A stretch of DNA of 64,000 nt, from assembly GCF_000496695.1 (NCBI RefSeq), contig NZ_BAUJ01000019.1, forward strand, positions 1 through 64,000, read 5' to 3'. Of this stretch, positions 54,923 to 63,502 are shown piece by piece. Source of the DNA: Vibrio halioticoli NBRC 102217 (GTDB lineage: Bacteria; Pseudomonadota; Gammaproteobacteria; Enterobacterales; Vibrionaceae). Below the pieces are notes generated by a model. The model did no database searches. It saw nothing but the letters and a program-made list of their open reading frames with translations, and was not told where the DNA came from. Positions within the stretch are counted from its first letter, which is position 1; each line of letters begins with the position of its first letter. The translations under genes and the position numbers were made by a program.

Positions 54923-55984
54923 GTGAAACCAGTTGTTTTAAAAAGAGACGGTTCTCTTGCCCCTTTCGCCAAAGATCGCATTGTCGAAGCTATCAAAAGT
55001 GCAGGATCAGATGTTGATCAGTGCCTATCGGATTATGCTGAAGACGTTGCAAAGCAGGTAGAGGGACAACTGGCGGGTAGCCACGAAGTGGATATCCAGC
55101 AAATCCAAACCTTAGTCGAAAATGAACTTATGCAAGGCCCATATAAAGGTCTGGCTCGTTCTTACATCGAGTATCGCCATGATCGTGATAAAGCGAGAGA
55201 GAAGAAAAGTGTTCTTAACCAAGAGATCCAAGGCCTTATTGAGCAATCAAATGCCGATCTGTTGAATGAGAATGCCAACAAAGATGGCAAAGTGATCCCA
55301 ACTCAGCGCGATCTGTTAGCGGGCATCGTGGCTAAGCACTACGCCAAAACACATATTCTTCCTCGTGACATCGTACAAGCTCATGAGCAAGGCGATATCC
55401 ACTACCACGATCTTGATTACGCACCGTTTTTCCCAATGTTTAACTGTATGCTTATCGATCTTAAAGGCATGTTAACACATGGATTTAAGATGGGTAATGC
55501 TGAGATTGATACACCAAAATCAATTTCTACAGCGACAGCGGTCACCGCGCAAATCATCGCGCAAGTGGCTAGCCACATCTACGGCGGTACCACCATCAAC
55601 CGTATTGATGAAGTGCTTGAACCGTACGTGATGAGCAGTTACGAAAAACATTTAGAAGTGGCGAAAGAGTGGGATATTCATGATCCTAAAGCATTTGCGC
55701 GCTCTCGCACGGAAAAAGAATGTTACGACGCATTCCAATCTTTAGAATACGAAGTAAACACACTGCATACCGCAAACGGACATTATGTGGTAGAAGTTTT
55801 TTCAAATGATGTGGGTGTATGTATGTCTCAGAAGCTCACGGTTCCTCAGCTAGATTACATAACCCCAGTATTAAAAGGCTTTGATGAGTCTAATCTATCT
55901 TCCTATCCAGCATTAAAAGTTATGCGAGAGTACTCTCACATTTTTGCAGCAAATGACGCTAACTTTCTTGCTATTGCAGCTTAA
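54923..55984 (+). pseudogene. nrdD: Truncated resident anaerobic ribonucleotide reductase fused to a foreign tail
   Basis: 353-codon frame from GTG (AAGGAG before it). Residues 1-286 are genuine NrdD: ATP-cone (VVLKRDGSLAPF) and the beginning of the catalytic barrel up to EVNTLHTANG. At about base 55782 homology stops in the middle of the conserved NGQTPF region and 68 unrelated residues (HYVVEVFSNDV to NFLAIAA) follow. All active-site cysteines after this point and the glycyl radical are missing, so it cannot work. It retains the FNR/NrdR promoter. Codon usage looks more host-like than in the copy downstream. Confidence 0.88.
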
Positions 55985-56006
55985 TCCAATTACGTAGGAC
56001 AAAATA
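55783..56006 (+). other. Foreign junction segment between the two nrdD copies
   Basis: About 220 bp of unrecognised sequence that starts inside nrdD and ends at the second nrdD. It keeps the truncated frame open for 67 codons. Likely the left end of the inserted element; no repeat or integrase remnant identified by eye. Confidence 0.5.
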
Positions 56007-58148
56007 ATGATCATGAAACCAGTAACTAAATCTATCGTTATTAAACGTGATGGGGCGAAAGTGCAGTTTAATCCTGAACTGATTAAATATGCCGTACAAG
56101 CTGCTGCCGAGCAGGTAGGTTCTGTAAAACTTGATTTGAGCGATATTGTTGCCGCAAATGTAGCGGAGCAACTGATGAAGAAAGCTGAAATCAAAATTAA
56201 TGATATACAGAAGTTAGTAGAATCTGAATTGATGCATCATGATGAGGATGTTGCTAGAGCGTATATCGAATACAGACACGATAGAGATATCAAGCGTGAA
56301 AAAGCTAGTGCTCTTAGCTCTGAAATTTCAGGCTTAATCGAACAAAGTAATGCTGAGCTATTAAACGAAAATGCAAATAAAGATGGTAAAGTTATACCAA
56401 CTCAGCGTGATTTATTAGCAGGTATTGTATCTAAACACTACGCTAAAAATCATATGCTGCCACGTGATGTCGTGTCAGCACATGACATTGGTCAAATTCA
56501 TTATCACGATCTTGATTACTCGCCATTCTTCCCAATGTTTAACTGTATGATTGTTGACTTAGAAAATATGTTGACGAATGGTTTTCGAATGGGTAACGCT
56601 GAGATTGAGACTCCTAAGTCAATTCAAACAGCCACCGCAGTTACAGCGCAAATCGTAGCGCAAGTAGCAAGTCATACCTACGGTGGTACAACGTTAAATC
56701 GCCTAGATGAAGTTTTAGCACCTTACGTTACAGCCAGTTATGCAAAGCATCTTGCAACTGCTGAAAAATGGAATATTCCTGATACGAAAGCGTATGCAAA
56801 AGAGTTAACAGAAAAAGAGGTGTTTGATTCTTTTCAATCACTAGAATATGAGATCAACACGCTATTTTCGAGCAATGGTCAGACTCCTTTTTTAAGTATA
56901 AACATAGGGTTAGGAACATCGTGGGAATCTAGGCTGATCCAAAAAGCTATCTTTGATAATCGAATTGCTGGTCTGGGTAAGAGCAAGAAAACAGCGGTGT
57001 TCCCGAAGTTAATTTTTACGATTAAAGACGGAATTAATCATAAACAAGAAGATCCAAACTACGACATTAAACAGTTGGCATTAAAGTGTTCAACTAAGCG
57101 CATGTATCCAGATATTCTGAATTATGACAAAGTTGTCGAAGTAACTGGTTCATTTAAAGCTCCAATGGGCTGTCGTAGCTTCTTAGGTAAATATGTTGAT
57201 GAGCAAGGCAATGAAATTCATGAGGGTCGTAACAACCTTGGCGTTGTAAGTCTAAATCTACCTCGTATTGCTATGGAAGCAGAAGGTGAAGAACATAAGT
57301 TCTTCACAATTCTAGATGAACGTATCGCATTGGTTAGAAAAGCTCTTGAGACACGTATTGATCGCTTGAGAGGAGTTAAAGCAAAAGTTGCTCCTATTTT
57401 GTATACCGAGGGCGCTCTTGGAGTTCGTTTAGATCCTGAAGATGAAGTTTTGGATGTATTCAAAAATGGCCGAGCTTCAGTATCAATGGGTTACATTGGC
57501 ATCCATGAAACGATTAATGCTTTATACGCTAACTCTGAAGAACACATTTACGATAGTGAAGAGTTACGTCAAAAGGGTATAGCTATTGTTAAGCGCCTTA
57601 AAGATGCGACAGAGGCTTGGACGAAAGAAACGGGGTGGGGCTTTAGTTTATATAGCACTCCTTCTGAGAATCTTTGTACTCGATTCTGCTCGTTAGACAC
57701 TAAAGAATTTGGTGTGTTAGAAAACGTTACAGATAAAGGCTATTACACAAATAGTTTCCATTTGGATGTTGAAAAGAAAGTGAATCCTTATGACAAGATT
57801 GACTTTGAGATGCCATACCCTGCTTTAGCATCAGGTGGTTTTATCTGTTATGGCGAATACCCGAATATGCAACACAATCTTGAAGCTTTAGAAAATGTTT
57901 GGGACTACAGCTATTCTCGTGTGCCTTACTACGGAACTAATACTCCTATTGATGAGTGTTATGAATGTGGATTCACAGGTGAATTTGACTGTACGAGTAA
58001 AGGTTTTGAGTGTCCAAAATGTGGTAATCATGACTCGAAGAAAGTATCAGTAACCCGAAGAGTTTGTGGCTACCTAGGTTCTCCTGATGCAAGACCGTTC
58101 AACTCAGGTAAGCAAGAAGAAGTGATTCGAAGAGTTAAACACATGTAG
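56007..58148 (+). CDS. nrdD: Anaerobic ribonucleoside-triphosphate reductase (imported complete copy)
   Basis: 713 residues, full length (E. coli 712). ATP-cone, catalytic ten-stranded barrel with SSNGQTPFLSINIGLG, zinc site CYECGF...CPKCGN and glycyl-radical site RRVCGYLG (Gly688). Reduces NTPs to dNTPs without oxygen. Its central part is closely similar to the truncated copy upstream (for example QSNA-LLNENANKDGKVIPTQ in both) but diverged elsewhere and more AT-rich, so it is a paralogue from another lineage, not a tandem duplicate. AGGAC precedes ATG; the gene probably relies on readthrough from the resident promoter. Confidence 0.95.
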   Translation: MIMKPVTKSIVIKRDGAKVQFNPELIKYAVQAAAEQVGSVKLDLSDIVAANVAEQLMKKAEIKINDIQKLVESELMHHDEDVARAYIEYRHDRDIKREKASALSSEISGLIEQSNAELLNENANKDGKVIPTQRDLLAGIVSKHYAKNHMLPRDVVSAHDIGQIHYHDLDYSPFFPMFNCMIVDLENMLTNGFRMGNAEIETPKSIQTATAVTAQIVAQVASHTYGGTTLNRLDEVLAPYVTASYAKHLATAEKWNIPDTKAYAKELTEKEVFDSFQSLEYEINTLFSSNGQTPFLSINIGLGTSWESRLIQKAIFDNRIAGLGKSKKTAVFPKLIFTIKDGINHKQEDPNYDIKQLALKCSTKRMYPDILNYDKVVEVTGSFKAPMGCRSFLGKYVDEQGNEIHEGRNNLGVVSLNLPRIAMEAEGEEHKFFTILDERIALVRKALETRIDRLRGVKAKVAPILYTEGALGVRLDPEDEVLDVFKNGRASVSMGYIGIHETINALYANSEEHIYDSEELRQKGIAIVKRLKDATEAWTKETGWGFSLYSTPSENLCTRFCSLDTKEFGVLENVTDKGYYTNSFHLDVEKKVNPYDKIDFEMPYPALASGGFICYGEYPNMQHNLEALENVWDYSYSRVPYYGTNTPIDECYECGFTGEFDCTSKGFECPKCGNHDSKKVSVTRRVCGYLGSPDARPFNSGKQEEVIRRVKHM

Positions 58149-58157
58149 TGAGGCTAA

Positions 58158-58628
58158 ATGAATTACCATAAGTACCATTCAGTAGATGTAGTGAACGGAG
58201 AGGGTACTCGCTGTACCCTGTTCGTGGCTGGTTGTGAACACAATTGTAGAGGGTGTTACAATAAATCTACATTGAACCCTAATTCAGGTCATCTGTTTAC
58301 CCAAGAGATCGAAGAGCAGATAATTGCTGATCTTAAAGATAAACGTATAAAGAGACGTGGTTTATCTTTATCTGGCGGCGATCCTCTTCATCCTGCTAAC
58401 TTAGAACAAATTTACCAATTAGTTTTAAGAGTAAAAAAAGAATGTTCAGACAAAGATATTTGGATGTGGACAGGTTACACCTTAGCTGAATTAAACCCAA
58501 AACAGCAGGCGATCGTGGAAAATATAGATGTGCTTATTGATGGGAAATTCGAGCAAGATAGTTATGATCCTGGATTACTGTGGCGTGGCTCTAGTAATCA
58601 GGTAATTCATCACTTTAAAGATATTTAA
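58158..58628 (+). CDS. nrdG: Anaerobic NrdD-activating enzyme
   Basis: 156 residues, radical SAM activase with CEHNCRGCYN (Cys26, 30, 33) and LSGGDPLHPANL. Generates the glycyl radical on NrdD using SAM and a [4Fe-4S] cluster. 9 nt after the complete nrdD copy. Confidence 0.95.
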   Translation: MNYHKYHSVDVVNGEGTRCTLFVAGCEHNCRGCYNKSTLNPNSGHLFTQEIEEQIIADLKDKRIKRRGLSLSGGDPLHPANLEQIYQLVLRVKKECSDKDIWMWTGYTLAELNPKQQAIVENIDVLIDGKFEQDSYDPGLLWRGSSNQVIHHFKDI

Positions 58629-58652: not shown

Positions 58653-59684
58653 ATGGCAGATTATATTAAGTACTTACCAGTTGATAATGGCGATAGCATT
58701 TTAATCAAGTCGGGTTATAAGTCAGTTCTTACGGACATTAAGTACCGTACTTCAGATGATGATGTTTATGATATTTTTGATGATATTAAAGACGCATGCT
58801 CAGACAATAAGCTAAGTCTTTATGTGTCTACTCATCAAGATCAAGATCATGTGTTGGGCTTTTCTGACGTATTTCATTGTGGCACTCCAGTCAACTGGAA
58901 AAACGATGGAAATACGTTACTAGTTTGTGAAATTGCATGCTCTGAACGAGCATTGACAGAAGATAAAACAGATCAGTCACGAGCGATATTAAACGAAATT
59001 CGCCGCCGTAACAGGCTCATAGGTACAGTTGACGCAGATAAGGATGGGAATCGCTTAAAAGTAGTCAAAGAAGGTGATAACTTATCGATGGGAACCAAAC
59101 TTAAAGGCAAAGTTTTAGCCCCAAACGGTGAAGAGGCTGATGGTGAAAGCCGTAATAACAGTAGCGTGGTCGTGCGTTGGATTTATAGTGGTGATAAAAA
59201 TAGTACCAAGATTCTTTTAGGTGGTGATGCTGAATGTGAAGTTTGGGAGCGCCTTGATACTGACTACAAAGCTGAAGATCTAGATTGGCATTTGTGTACT
59301 GCACCACATCATTGTAGTTTGACTCCTTTAGCAAAAAAAGAAGACAAGACAGATAAAAATAGCGACTACGTAGATAATGACAAGGCTATTAACGCTCTTA
59401 ATCATCCGTTGGGAAAAGCATTCGTAGTATCTTCTTCTAAAAAAATTAAACGGGATGATGATAATCCACCTCATTACAAAGCCAAGAATAAGTGGATTTC
59501 AATACTAAAAACTTCTGAGACAGATGAATCCAAAGAGCGTTTTTTCTGTACAGCAGAGCATGAAGAAAAAACAGCTCCTGTGGTGTTTACTTTGAATGAT
59601 AACGGTATAACTCTAGAGAAGAAATCAAAAAGTAATAATGCTACTAAAGCTACCGCAGTCAACAAGCCTACTACATATGGATAA
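58653..59684 (+). CDS. ComEC-like metallo-beta-lactamase hydrolase with Gly-ending tail
   Basis: 343 residues from the ATG at 58653 (AAGGAG 8 nt before it), 24 nt after nrdG. MBL fold of the ComEC/Rec2 type: STHQDQDHVLGF (H61, D63, D65, H66, matching SHxDxDHxGG), NNSSVVVRWIYSG, ILLGGDAE (D192) and TAPHHCS (H219-H220, cf. PHHGS). Free-standing, without membrane helices. After the domain the chain ends in a Lys/Asn/Thr-rich, presumably flexible tail of about 25 residues ending TTYG. That resembles the C-terminal Gly/Ala tails of CBASS cyclases that are conjugated by Cap2. First gene of a three-gene operon. Confidence 0.86.
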   Translation: MADYIKYLPVDNGDSILIKSGYKSVLTDIKYRTSDDDVYDIFDDIKDACSDNKLSLYVSTHQDQDHVLGFSDVFHCGTPVNWKNDGNTLLVCEIACSERALTEDKTDQSRAILNEIRRRNRLIGTVDADKDGNRLKVVKEGDNLSMGTKLKGKVLAPNGEEADGESRNNSSVVVRWIYSGDKNSTKILLGGDAECEVWERLDTDYKAEDLDWHLCTAPHHCSLTPLAKKEDKTDKNSDYVDNDKAINALNHPLGKAFVVSSSKKIKRDDDNPPHYKAKNKWISILKTSETDESKERFFCTAEHEEKTAPVVFTLNDNGITLEKKSKSNNATKATAVNKPTTYG

Positions 59685-59689
59685 TTAAT

Positions 59690-61912
59690 ATGCCAGAACT
59701 ACCAGATTGGATTGGTTATGATGTTAGGGTATTAGAGCAGCACGAAGACGTGCTGCTCTCTTCTATTATCATATTGGAACAGTCGGTTGATGTTTGTTTT
59801 GATATTCATTTCCCTCATTACCCTCAAGCTCACGATAAGCGAATTCATAATCCAGAAAAAATAACGTTAAGTTACGCTAAAACTGAGGCAAGAGGTGCGC
59901 CTGATGTTCTGGCGATTCGAGATGATTTCCCTCGACATCTACCACATTTAAATCCAACGAAGTTGACTTCCCCAGTCTCGATCTGCTTATGGCGTAAAGG
60001 TGGAACTAAAGCTCTATACATACAGAAAGGTATTGAAAGTCTTATTGACGTTCTACAAGAGTGGTTGGTTGACGCATCTTTGGGAGATCTAAATACTGAT
60101 GGTTGGGAGCCATCCCCTCGAACGAGTTGTGCAAGCCTAGTTACAAATGCACCGAAGTTGCAAGAGATGATATGCAACCCTAAGAGCGCAGGGATGCTAT
60201 TACAGCTTGAGACAAAAGTCTGTTTTAGTAGATTCAAGGGGACGCCATTTGGTGTTTCAGCCAGCAAAGCAATTATTAACCTTAAAAATATTGATAGCTA
60301 TGTTAACGCAAGGAAAAACGGTCAATGTGTTACGAAGCAGGTAAGCGTTAAGGGAGAGAAGCTTGAACACCTAAACACGTTTGTCTTAGTACCAAGCCAT
60401 AGTTATGCCAATGATATTAATGATAGCCGTGAAATAGAATCTCTAGCTGATCTTAAAGCGTTTGCATGCGATGACATTTATAACGACTTTATTGAGATTG
60501 TTGAGTCTGAGTTTTCTCGCTTCAATGAAGAGCGAGCAGTTATAGTTGTTATTGCCAAACGCAGACCTAAGGCGATGATCTCAGAAATAATGGGGCTTTC
60601 TAAAGATGAAGAGTGTAGAAAAGTTGAGCTGCTTCCGTTTCTAATCCACTATCGTAAACGAGAAATTCAGGTAGACTTTTTATCGCTACGCTCTCGAATG
60701 AATCCAGAAGAGTTAGCCCAAATATCTGGGGTTGAACCCAACGGTGGCTCGTTAGGTTTTATCGGTGCAGGTGCGTTGGGATCTGCAATCTCAGATCAAT
60801 TAGCGAGATCTGGTGTATACAAAATCAAACAGTGGGATAGGGATAGCATAGAGTTACACAATTCTGCTCGTCATGTTTGTATCGACTCCACTTTTGAAAC
60901 ACCAGTGTTGTCAACTAAAGCGAGAATGGTTGTGGAGCGGCTAAAACAGTTGAGTGAAGAGCATCGAAAGGGAGTTGAAGGTTTCGATAAGCACTTTGAA
61001 ATTCAAAATGAACGAGGCGTTTGCTCTAAGCTCGATTTGCTTATAGACACTACTGGTTCAGATCTCATGGGATCATGGCAAGAGCGTCCTTCATGTGCAG
61101 TAACACGAGTTTATGTTTCCGATAGCGGGCGAATTGGTGTAATACAATGCTTGCAAAGTAATGGGGACGGTGCAGATATCCTAGATCTTGATGCATACCT
61201 TATCTTATCCTCGACTCGGATTGGGGCGTTACGTGACTGGTTGATTCGAGATGCCTCTCTAGAAGCTAAACTAATAGGCTTAAGTTGTAGTAGTGAAACT
61301 TTGGCTTTACCTTGGTCTTCAGTACTTAACCATGCTTCAACGTTTGTACCTTTGATTAGAAAGCAAATGTCTGAGTCGAGATCAATGCTGGGTATCAATG
61401 TTTTAGATGACGATGGTCTTCCTCAGGGATACATGCAAGTAGCTAAGCAGGATGAACTGATATTTGAAGCTCAAACCATTGCTGACGCTGATGGTGTAGA
61501 GTGGTATATTACCGTTCATTCGTCTGTGACAGAGAAGTGCGATAAGGTCACTAGTGAATATGCGCCAAAAGAAGCTGGCGGTTACTTATGTGGCTTAGTG
61601 AATATGGAGCTAAATCGCATCTCAATAGTGTTTGCATCGAAAGGTAAATTTACTTCTACTGCAACTGGGCTAACTCTAGAACCCATTGATGAAGATAATG
61701 AGTTTAAGGCGCTAATGGAAAGTTGTAATGAGATGTTGTTGCCTCTCGGAACATGGCATTCTCATCCTAGTTCTACATCCAAAGAGTCTAGTACTGATAT
61801 GCGTACATTGGAAGAAGTTACGAAACAAAAGCAGCCACTACCGTTTGTAATGCTAATCAAAGGAGCTGATGGTATAAACCTTCAAGTAGGGTACAACAGG
61901 AATTTTGACTAA
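59690..61912 (+). CDS. E2-E1-JAB triple-domain ubiquitin-like conjugation protein
   Basis: 740 residues. N-terminal E2-like domain (about 1-150) with catalytic Cys99 in PVSICLW and the EWL helix after it; a linker/beta region; an E1/ThiF domain with GAGALG (359-364), Asp383, and LHNSARHV (Arg394), and a candidate E1 active Cys533 in GLSCSSETLALPW; and a C-terminal JAB/MPN peptidase with Glu628 (KEAGGYLCG), H690-S-H692-P, S700 and D703, i.e. a complete JAMM zinc site. It joins in one chain what CBASS type II splits into Cap2 (E2-E1) and Cap3 (JAB). 5 nt after the MBL gene. No separate ubiquitin-like protein is encoded nearby. Confidence 0.9.
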   Translation: MPELPDWIGYDVRVLEQHEDVLLSSIIILEQSVDVCFDIHFPHYPQAHDKRIHNPEKITLSYAKTEARGAPDVLAIRDDFPRHLPHLNPTKLTSPVSICLWRKGGTKALYIQKGIESLIDVLQEWLVDASLGDLNTDGWEPSPRTSCASLVTNAPKLQEMICNPKSAGMLLQLETKVCFSRFKGTPFGVSASKAIINLKNIDSYVNARKNGQCVTKQVSVKGEKLEHLNTFVLVPSHSYANDINDSREIESLADLKAFACDDIYNDFIEIVESEFSRFNEERAVIVVIAKRRPKAMISEIMGLSKDEECRKVELLPFLIHYRKREIQVDFLSLRSRMNPEELAQISGVEPNGGSLGFIGAGALGSAISDQLARSGVYKIKQWDRDSIELHNSARHVCIDSTFETPVLSTKARMVVERLKQLSEEHRKGVEGFDKHFEIQNERGVCSKLDLLIDTTGSDLMGSWQERPSCAVTRVYVSDSGRIGVIQCLQSNGDGADILDLDAYLILSSTRIGALRDWLIRDASLEAKLIGLSCSSETLALPWSSVLNHASTFVPLIRKQMSESRSMLGINVLDDDGLPQGYMQVAKQDELIFEAQTIADADGVEWYITVHSSVTEKCDKVTSEYAPKEAGGYLCGLVNMELNRISIVFASKGKFTSTATGLTLEPIDEDNEFKALMESCNEMLLPLGTWHSHPSSTSKESSTDMRTLEEVTKQKQPLPFVMLIKGADGINLQVGYNRNFD

Positions 61913-61914
61913 AA

Positions 61915-62412
61915 ATGAAAGAGTTACTAACTAAAATCTCATCTTATAACTTGTTTAATTACTTGTTTCCAGGTGCATTGTTTGTCGTTCTATTAGAAAA
62001 ACTTACACATTTTTCACTAAGGCAGGATGATTTAGTTCTAGGTGTTTTCTTTTACTATTTTCTTGGTTTGGTAATCAGTCGTATGGGTTCGGTCTTTGTT
62101 GAGCCTGCTCTTAAGAAGCTACGAGTTGTTAAGTTTGCTGACTATGCGGATTATTTACCAGCGTCAAAAGAAGATGGCTTAATTGCTACACTTTCGGAAC
62201 AAAATAACATGTTTCGGACTTTATGCTCTGTGATGATGTGTTTAGGTGGGGCGAAAATATGGGAATTTTATTCGTTACAGTACCCCTGGGTCATTGAGAA
62301 TATGGAGGCTATCGTAATCTGTGGGCTGGGGATATTATTTGTTCTAGCCTATAGAAAACAGACAGCCTATATTAGTGCCAGAGTGACTCGCCACACAAAT
62401 AAAAAAAATTGA
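61915..62412 (+). CDS. Small four-helix membrane protein of the conjugation operon
   Basis: 165 residues, starting 2 nt after the E2-E1-JAB gene. Predicted membrane helices at about 12-29, 41-60, 99-117 and 129-147 with a soluble loop (65-97). The N terminus KISSYNLFNYLFPGALF resembles short membrane proteins seen beside other defence genes. It may be the membrane effector or the membrane anchor of the system; not recognised as a named family. Confidence 0.78.
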   Translation: MKELLTKISSYNLFNYLFPGALFVVLLEKLTHFSLRQDDLVLGVFFYYFLGLVISRMGSVFVEPALKKLRVVKFADYADYLPASKEDGLIATLSEQNNMFRTLCSVMMCLGGAKIWEFYSLQYPWVIENMEAIVICGLGILFVLAYRKQTAYISARVTRHTNKKN

Positions 62413-62632
62413 TAATCATATTAGTTTTAACTGAACCATCAATGATAGAGAAGTGAGTTAAGTTCTTTTCGTTCAGCTTTCATTGAATAGATTCGCTTCG
62501 CTCAGCGATGCTAATGAAAGCCTAGCTCTTGGACGGATCTCAAATTAGTACTATTGATCACTTTGTTATCTCTCCTCGCTTATCCCTATGGATCGCTCAT
62601 TATGCGGTTTAGCTATGCGACTTTTCGCTTTG
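62413..62632. other. Spacer after the conjugation operon
   Basis: Holds the right 12-bp direct repeat and a possible stem-loop GCTTTCATT (62476-62484) / AATGAAAGC (62513-62521) with an inner TCGC/GCGA stem; this may end the operon transcript. No gene seen. Confidence 0.45.
62438..62449 (+). repeat. 12-bp direct repeat, right copy
   Basis: ATCAATGATAGA, identical to 58629-58640, 26 nt after the last gene of the three-gene operon; the two copies bracket the operon. Confidence 0.6.
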
Positions 62633-62768
62633 TGTCCGAAATGCGGCAACTAGGATTTTAAAATGTCTCCGTGACTCGAAGATTGTGTGGTAATCTTGGT
62701 GCTTGACCGTTTAGCTCAGGTAAACAAGAAGGAGTGTTTACCTGAGCTAAACACATGGACTGAGCATA
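62633..62768 (+). pseudogene. nrdD: Decayed 3' end of nrdD
   Basis: Recognisable relic of the NrdD C terminus: TGTCCGAAATGCGGCAA corresponds to the CPKCGN codons, followed by GTGACTCGAAGATTGTGTGG (cf. VTRRVCG) and the CTCAGGTAAACAAGAAG stretch (cf. SGKQEE), ending at a start codon context AAATG as in the intact copy. In-frame stops and frameshifts are present. Contains a perfect 16-bp inverted repeat (62710-62725 / 62736-62751). Confidence 0.8.
62710..62751. repeat. Perfect 16-bp inverted repeat in the nrdD relic
   Basis: TTTAGCTCAGGTAAAC and GTTTACCTGAGCTAAA around the loop AAGAAGGAGT. The left arm is nrdD-derived; the right arm replaces the nrdD sequence expected there. Confidence 0.85.
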
Positions 62769-62769
62769 A

Positions 62770-62874
62770 ATGAATTATCATAAGTATCATTCAGTTGATG
62801 TTGTGAACGGAGAGGGGACTCGTTGTACCCTATTTAAACAAGACTTGTATGATCCAGAGCTGTTATGGTGGTTG
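62770..62874 (+). pseudogene. nrdG: Remnant of nrdG with internal deletion
   Basis: The first 22 codons of NrdG (MNYHKYHSVDVVNGEGTRCT and LF) are intact and then jump to KQDLYDPELLW, matching the EQDSYDPGLLW near the C terminus of the complete copy. The radical SAM cysteines are in the deleted part. The frame then runs into the antisense of the recombinase gene. Confidence 0.85.
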
Positions 62875-63502
62875 GAGTTTGTGAAGCCTTCCATCGGTAA
62901 TAGGTTGCACGCCCTAAGTTGTATGTTTTTAAAGCTTCAGGGAGTTTTTCGACTCCCGCATTTACCATTCGGTGAACCTTCTCACATTTTATAGCTGTCT
63001 CTGGATTTGCTTGCCTGCCTTTAAACTTACCGTGGTTTTTAGCTTTTTCAATGCCTTCACGCTGTCTTCTACGTCTATCTTCGTAATCTTTAGAGGCTGT
63101 GGCAGCCAAGATTTCGATTAGCATTGAATTTACTGATTCCAGCACTCTTTGTTGCATTTCATCTTGAGTTTGCTCTAAGACTTTAAAGCTAGTTGCTACA
63201 TCACAAGCAACAACCTTTAAGCCTTTTTGCTCTATTTCTGATCTTAACGTTTTCCAGTTAGAAGAAGTAAGGCGTGTTAATCGATCTATTTGTTCAACGA
63301 GGATAATATCGCCTGGTGATGACTCTGATAGTAAACGAGTCAGTTCGGGTCGAGCGACCTTGCGTCCTGAGTAATTCTCGATATATTCGACAGAATTTAA
63401 TAATGATAGATTATTTAGCAAAGCCTGTTCGTGGATATATTCTCTGGCTCGCAATGCGTCTGCTTCAGAAGTTGATGCCCTCAAGTAGATCCTAATAGTC
63501 AT
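62834..63502 (-). CDS. Small serine recombinase (resolvase/invertase family)
   Basis: 222 residues. N-terminal catalytic domain with the Ser10 nucleophile in YLRASTSEADALRARE, SGRKVARPELTRLL, and the DRLTRLT arginine motif; long E helix; C-terminal helix-turn-helix (PEALKTYNLGRATYYRWKA). Size and layout fit Tn3-type resolvases/invertases. The last about 13 residues (TTITALDHTSLV) are read from the antisense of the nrdG remnant, so the natural C terminus was probably changed by the insertion. Convergent to the operon. A 33-bp palindrome lies in front of it. Confidence 0.88.
   Translation of the reverse strand: MTIRIYLRASTSEADALRAREYIHEQALLNNLSLLNSVEYIENYSGRKVARPELTRLLSESSPGDIILVEQIDRLTRLTSSNWKTLRSEIEQKGLKVVACDVATSFKVLEQTQDEMQQRVLESVNSMLIEILAATASKDYEDRRRRQREGIEKAKNHGKFKGRQANPETAIKCEKVHRMVNAGVEKLPEALKTYNLGRATYYRWKASQTPTTITALDHTSLV

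Follow-up and report, generated by a model that had tools for sequence, protein, structure and literature searches.

In CBASS, Cap2 conjugates the cyclase via its C-terminal Gly or Ala and Cap3 releases it again (PMC10097602); one such system attaches its cyclase to PspA (PMC11153139). According to a 2025 review, Cap2 was then the only known system of this kind to activate a protein that lacks the beta-grasp fold (PMC12355090). Bacterial E1- and JAB-type enzymes are also found in the Bub and Bil systems, which have a ubiquitin-like protein (BubA). A further architecture, listed as row 6a by Iyer et al. (2006; PMC1779556) and named 6A-MBL by NCBIfam (NF058523/NF058524), places a metallo-beta-lactamase (MBL) gene beside a gene for a fused E2-E1-JAB protein. 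The relevant sections of the 2006 paper do not propose the MBL as a modifier, and our sole source for an anti-phage activity of 6A-MBL is the NCBIfam name. PADLOC lists another pairing, PDC-M48, of a membrane protein with a ComEC-like MBL.

The window analysed here is the whole stretch of 64,000 nucleotides from Vibrio halioticoli NBRC 102217 (contig NZ_BAUJ01000019.1, positions 1 to 64,000). At 58653-62412 (+) it carries an operon of three genes, encoding the MBL P0001, the E2-E1-JAB protein P0002 and P0003 (Table 1). We propose that this is a divergent 6A-MBL operon and that its MBL is very probably a non-ubiquitin conjugation substrate, as the CD-NTase is in CBASS, a reading that is inferred from sequence alone and for which there is no biochemical evidence.

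Results

The operon and its proteins

The window operon meets the 2006 6A-MBL architecture, with E2, E1 and JAB domains in that order on one chain and encoded beside a specialised MBL. P0002 matches the NCBIfam model 6A-MBL_cap2_3 over most of its length (295 bits, cut-off 320) and P0001 matches 6A-MBL_enzyme at 212.8 bits (cut-off 220); both fall just under the cut-offs, which makes the operon a divergent relative rather than an equivalog. The P0001 and P0002 reading frames do not overlap, and P0001 has a possible alternative start, a GTG two codons upstream of 58653.

Table 1. Features of the three-gene operon in the window.
Feature	Position	Strand	Basis
MBL-fold protein P0001 (343 aa), proposed conjugation substrate	58653..59684	+	NCBIfam and model
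HxDxDH metal motif, P0001 residues 61-66	58833..58850	+	H61, D63, D65 and H66 in 67/67 aligned rows
HHCS motif, P0001 residues 219-222	59307..59318	+	67/67 aligned rows
P0001 C-terminal tail, residues 322-343, ending KPTTYG	59616..59681	+	Low pLDDT; motif kept in homologues
Gly343 (GGA), proposed point of adenylation and conjugation	59679..59681	+	ORF reading; homologue conservation
P0001 stop codon TAA	59682-59684	+	Direct reading
E2-E1-JAB protein P0002 (740 aa), proposed conjugating and deconjugating enzyme	59690..61912	+	Pfam, NCBIfam, model
C99, proposed E2 catalytic cysteine	59984..59986	+	62/63 rows, one gap; role by analogy
GxGxxG nucleotide-binding motif, E1 domain, residues 359-364	60764..60781	+	Three Gly in 63/63 rows
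C533, proposed E1 catalytic cysteine	61286..61288	+	63/63 rows; role by analogy
JAB metalloprotease core E628, H690, H692, S700, D703	61571..61798	+	61-63 of 63 rows
P0003, 165-aa membrane protein, proposed effector	61915..62412	+	PADLOC PDC-M48A, 6e-62; membrane nature judged by eye

A Pfam search of P0001 gave no significant match and did not recognise the MBL. An AlphaFold2 model built on a 43-row alignment has an MBL fold up to residue 321 (mean pLDDT 84.7), and the nearest solved structure is the ComEC MBL domain (9ic4, E 1.1e-14), with which a profile search concurs; a ComEC-type fold is thus predicted. The MBL active site is intact, with H61, D63, D65, H66, H219 and H220 present in 67/67 rows and D192 in 66. 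The last strand of the model spans residues 318-321 and pLDDT is below 50 over 326-343. The original prediction, that the MBL ends in a flexible tail of about 25 residues with a terminal Gly, therefore held for the tail and its Gly, by ORF reading and model, and is corrected in length to a predicted disordered stretch of about 18-22 residues. The final 22 are EKKSKSNNATKATAVNKPTTYG. As the NCBIfam MBL model stops at P0001 residue 318, the tail lies outside it.

Pfam assigns Prok-E2_A, ThiF and Prok-JAB domains to P0002. Its residues were compared across 63 homologues of the 69 representatives described below, six shorter or different rows being excluded; R373, D383, N391, R394 and K410 are retained in 61-63 of the 63, and P0002 itself has all of the conserved E2, E1, ATP-site and JAB residues. 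The catalytic roles of C99 and C533 are assigned by analogy. The closest structure to the P0002 model (mean pLDDT 78.7) is that of Cap2 bound to CdnD02 (7to3, E 2.6e-24), followed by BubCD (e.g. 9ea4). The structural matches also include the E1 relatives ThiF, MoeB and MccB, whose chemistry suggests another reading: the MBL tail may be adenylated to yield a thiocarboxylate or other small modification, or the MBL may be attached to a lipid or small molecule instead of protein. We consider this unlikely, since P0002 combines a JAB domain with a conserved E2 cysteine, a better fit to the transfer and cleavage of an amide link.

Conjugation of the MBL itself, our preferred reading, has its closest parallel in type II CBASS. 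In both, E1-E2 and JAB enzymes accompany a first-gene enzyme whose tail carries a Gly or Ala, and the effector slot varies, with patatins among its occupants. The MBL operons differ in having an MBL-fold substrate and E2, E1 and JAB fused in one chain, and there is no CD-NTase among the three genes of the window operon. By analogy, then, this operon would work like type II CBASS without being a member of it.

Conservation of the MBL tail

Four MBLs were used to scan 84,980 species genomes, giving 200 confirmed stretches of which the best 80 were taken, and loci were added from genome searches, plasmids and viral contigs. The set held 116 ORFs above 200 bits, 103 of them distinct, which reduced to 69 representatives at 80% identity. 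Scans of IMG/VR with P0001 or P0002 found no relative, phage records held no match to P0001 at 1e-3, and P0002 matched only one fragment among plasmids at 1e-15.

The last residue is Gly in 40 of the 69 representatives, one of which (L148) has no E1 gene behind the MBL, and in the other 29 there are 1-6 residues after the last Gly. Three of these 29 were set aside, namely L118, whose frame is broken, and L097 and L107, both ending in Ala; this left 66. All 66 have [HAYF]G followed by no more than seven residues, whereas 5000 shuffles of the 40-residue tails gave this in 14.1 on average (sd 3.3, max 25). A terminal Gly is present in 40/66, where shuffling gives 8.1 (sd 2.7, max 18). The [HAYF] class was picked after the data had been seen, the terminal-Gly test is that of the original prediction, and the shuffles do not correct for kinship among homologues.

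When 68 rows were anchored on the motif, the pairs were HG in 45, AG in 15, YG in 4, FG in 2, YA in 1 and FA in 1, with Pro (41 rows) or Ala (23 rows) four positions before the Gly; the anchor itself demands [HYFA]G, save in the two Ala rows. A further 1-6 residues lie beyond the Gly (or Ala) in 28/68 rows, so the claim of a terminal Gly holds only in part, and in these homologues trimming by the JAB domain would probably be needed. The KPTTYG of the window is nearest in type to two tails from Bacteroidota, QPSTYG-SKPI and KPSGYG-AEAI (L121 and L150). A variable C terminus among homologues would have counted against the original prediction. This was not what we found, the motif being present in 66/66 and the two MBLs with a different E1 ending in Ala, the CBASS alternative.

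Closer to P0001 there is less to compare. In a first MAFFT alignment of nine sequences, seven of them distant (25-32% identical to P0001), Gly343 is the sole invariant column past residue 277, although for L005 and L012 it was an internal tail Gly that the program placed there. The single close relative, L004, is 89% identical and has three amino-acid changes in residues 322-335, while its last eight codons show two silent changes and no amino-acid change, although these numbers are small. Because P0001 has only this one close relative, the case for tail conservation rests mostly on homologues that are about 30% identical.

A sceptical explanation is that the Gly has no role and is a by-product of tail composition or gene overlap. 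Many homologue tails are indeed rich in Ala, Ser and Gly, and many of the operons have a 4-base overlap. However, shuffling the same tails gives far fewer terminal Gly residues than are observed, overlapping operons occur both with and without residues after the Gly, and the window genes do not overlap; we regard this explanation as very unlikely.

Other MBLs do not share the tail. None of 14 control representatives has a terminal Gly/Ala or the tail motif, though two (L074 and L010) have a Gly within the last 9-10 residues. They came from alignment A5 and from further MBL ORFs of the loci, among them second MBLs encoded behind the E1 gene in some of the operons under study and MBLs adjacent to PDC-M48A proteins. 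Left out of the count were four ORFs that are fragments or chimeras (L008, L129 976-1176, L131 and L148 3114-4082) and one that is open-ended (L011 4279). All 14 are distant MBLs rather than sister genes whose E1 has been lost. Plasmid MBLs without an E1 were considered as controls and rejected as unusable, because in most of the plasmid regions fetched a ThiF or Mov34 gene lies right behind the MBL; the exceptions were L148, which has none and lies beside IS elements, L151, which has such a gene only as an unannotated ORF, and L155 and L156, which look broken up. Changes of the penultimate residue numbered four on the MBL tree and three on the E1 tree (65 rows, without L097 and L107), both far below shuffles, and these counts did not tell the hypotheses apart.

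Search for a ubiquitin-like gene

When ORFs of 60-180 aa lying on the same strand and no further than 1.5 kb away were clustered by BLAST, no family was found in more than 5 of 68 representative operons. A small ubiquitin-like gene in related operons would have refuted the idea that the MBL takes the donor role, and none recurs, unlike in the Bil and Bub systems. The test was by sequence only and some loci are short, so that highly diverged genes could have escaped; the absence holds for the operon surroundings only and a gene elsewhere in the genome is not excluded.

One possibility is that a host beta-grasp protein, for instance ThiS or MoaD, is what the E1 activates, the MBL being no more than a target or partner. 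Iyer et al. (2006; PMC1779556) suggested an endogenous ThiS/MoaD or an operon-encoded ubiquitin-like protein, and elsewhere E1-JAB proteins do use ubiquitin-like proteins, as in the BubCD structures. This would leave unexplained both the Gly/Ala-ended tail of the MBL and the change of tail with change of E1 described below, and we think it unlikely.

A natural exchange of E1 and tail

The strongest evidence for the MBL as conjugation substrate is a natural swap, support that the original prediction did not foresee. The MBLs of L107 and L097 (which has a near-copy, L098) score above the NCBIfam cut-off, at 399 and 419 bits respectively, and the nearest MBL cores in the set, 54-56% identical to L107 and 59% to L097, carry HG tails. 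Behind these two MBLs lie separate E1-E2 (Cap2-like) and JAB (Cap3-like) proteins, and both MBLs end in Ala. The best PADLOC profile of the E1-E2 protein is PDLC00836 (476 bits) for L107, shared with L161, and PDLC00855 (620 bits) for L097, shared with L165 and L167. Plasmid relatives of the two E1-E2 proteins adjoin CD-NTases (L161, L162, L163, L165, L166 and L168) or a nucleotidyl cyclase (L167, PycC at 728 bits, and L164, by reading).

The L097 MBL tail is PRPVTPVKPAGFA; its PVTPVKPAGFA is as in unrelated cyclases beside related Cap2s. The first-gene tails compared with it are NRDVTPTKPAGFA (L164), NTPRTPTTPKGFA (L165), DTPRTPKKPDGFA (L166), NRPTGPAKKDGFS (L167) and AHPVTPNKSAGFA (L168). 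In end-aligned BLOSUM62 scores over 14 residues, the L097 tail scores 29-57 against these five and at most 6 against the 66 MBLs (15 with trimming allowed). The likeness is weak for the L107 tail (SGRRYA), which scores 16, 16 and 6 against GGGRHA, GGGRHA and DGDERYA and at most 8 against the MBLs. Further genome matches were found for both E1-E2 proteins. Among four for L097, the upstream ORF ends in GFA or GFG in three and is unreadable in one; among five for L107, three have upstream GGGRHA, GGGRYG, or GGRYA then GSALP, one has no upstream ORF in the stretch, and in L177 the ORF lies 142 bases away and has an unlike end. Taken with the L097 and L107 tails, these neighbours indicate that tail type goes with the E1-E2 clade and not with the fold. 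The matching of tail to E1 in the swapped operons is shown; that the tail follows the E1 is our inference from it, strongly backed by L097 and modestly by L107.

The GGRYA followed by GSALP is in L175, so residues past the conserved Ala are not confined to MBL operons. In L167 (951-5619) the gene for a PycC cyclase whose Cap2-type tail ends DGFS shares an operon with Cap2- and Cap3-like genes, and a TIR gene lies next to these; L164 reads like the same operon with a tail ending PAGFA. Pycsar-type cyclases may possibly be conjugated too; our literature search found no paper on PycC with Cap2.

Discussion

Our proposal that the MBL is conjugated rests on its [HAYF]G tail, the predicted disorder of that tail, the conserved E2, E1 and JAB residues, the Cap2-like model of P0002, the lack of a recurrent ubiquitin-like ORF beside the operons and the swap. 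The MBL would be the ubiquitin-like donor of its own operon, even though its fold is unlike ubiquitin. The E1 domain of P0002 would adenylate the C-terminal Gly of the tail and take the MBL onto C533, the E2 domain (C99) would pass the whole MBL to a target, and the JAB domain would remove it again, having first trimmed the tail where residues follow the Gly. The donor role suggested in the original prediction is thus supported by sequence, while the adenylation, the thioester, the trimming and the isopeptide bond are inferred only. By analogy with the CD-NTase of type II CBASS, conjugation may prime, raise or place the activity of the MBL in phage infection, with the third-gene product, in the window a membrane protein, as effector. 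The conjugation half of this proposal is well supported by sequence; the activation and effector half is inference, and the conjugation target, the substrate hydrolysed by the MBL and any switching of the effector are speculative.

A bolder reading, towards which we lean without great confidence, is that what E1-E2 enzymes of bacteria recognise is a portable C-terminal tail and not a fold, such that immune enzymes of at least three unrelated kinds (CD-NTase, PycC and the ComEC-like MBL) wear the same tail types, one type per E1 clade. If so, the MBL would be a further non-ubiquitin class under ubiquitin-like control, and an enzyme could be recruited by gaining a tail. A Gly tail on a whole MBL, together with E1-matched tails, would if true make conjugation of immune enzymes a general bacterial scheme. 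Judged from sequence alone, the operon would combine an enzyme resembling nucleases with activating and cutting machinery of the ubiquitin type. The portable-tail idea is directly testable, and tractable operons are found on E. coli plasmids.

The operon and its name were known already. In the literature searched, bioRxiv and most subscription papers being outside its scope, we found no paper naming 6A-MBL, or on an MBL tail or an MBL conjugated by E1-E2 enzymes. Closed or unpublished work may nevertheless describe the role of the tail; as the NCBIfam name implies a described anti-phage system, this role is perhaps already known to others.

The third gene and the genomic setting

The third slot of the MBL operons is variable and in this resembles the CBASS effector slot. 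Across 103 distinct operons a downstream same-strand ORF is present in 72, absent in 21 and cut off by the locus end in 9, and one operon has no E1. A membrane-like family is the most frequent occupant (36), followed by a second ComEC-like MBL (11) and a different membrane-like family (7). Patatins were identified by annotation in L152 and L154 and by Pfam in L140, and L073 encodes a protein like P0003. Membrane nature was judged by eye in this census, several single ORFs are probably not genes, and the entries for L097 and L107 are their JAB genes.

P0003 is a strong match to PDC-M48A of PADLOC, whereas PDC-M48B matches P0001 only weakly (38.6 bits, residues 5-221); at 1e-10, PDC-M48B had no match in 229 genomes. 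P0003-like membrane proteins also lie beside another ComEC-like MBL in the PDC-M48-like pairs L135, L142 and L125, one of them on a 5.5-kb Citrobacter plasmid. These MBLs end in YPAEQEK, YPLDTED and TYKFTC respectively, without Gly, and no adjacent E1 was found.

Upstream of the operon in plasmids L120, L145, L146 and L155, the opposite strand carries a gene for a WYL-domain regulator. Of 5426 complete E. coli genomes, 31 have an operon at least 80% identical in DNA to that of L146 (plasmid pSE11-2 of E. coli SE11), located on plasmids in some and on chromosomes in others.

In the window, duplicated and diverged pieces of anaerobic ribonucleotide reductase genes lie on both sides of the operon (55163-58222 and 62632-62994); 55163-55698 and 56262-56797 are 72% identical, and 58010-58222 and 62632-62834 are 75% identical. 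It is possible that the operon was brought in with its own nrdD-nrdG stretch. A serine recombinase gene (Pfam Resolvase) lies directly behind the operon at 62834-63502 (-). Past the window, ORFs of the same contig (L137, C91 64126-78166) look by eye like a DUF262 protein, a Gabija-like pairing of a helicase with an OLD-type ATPase, and a type I restriction system, which suggests a defence-island setting.
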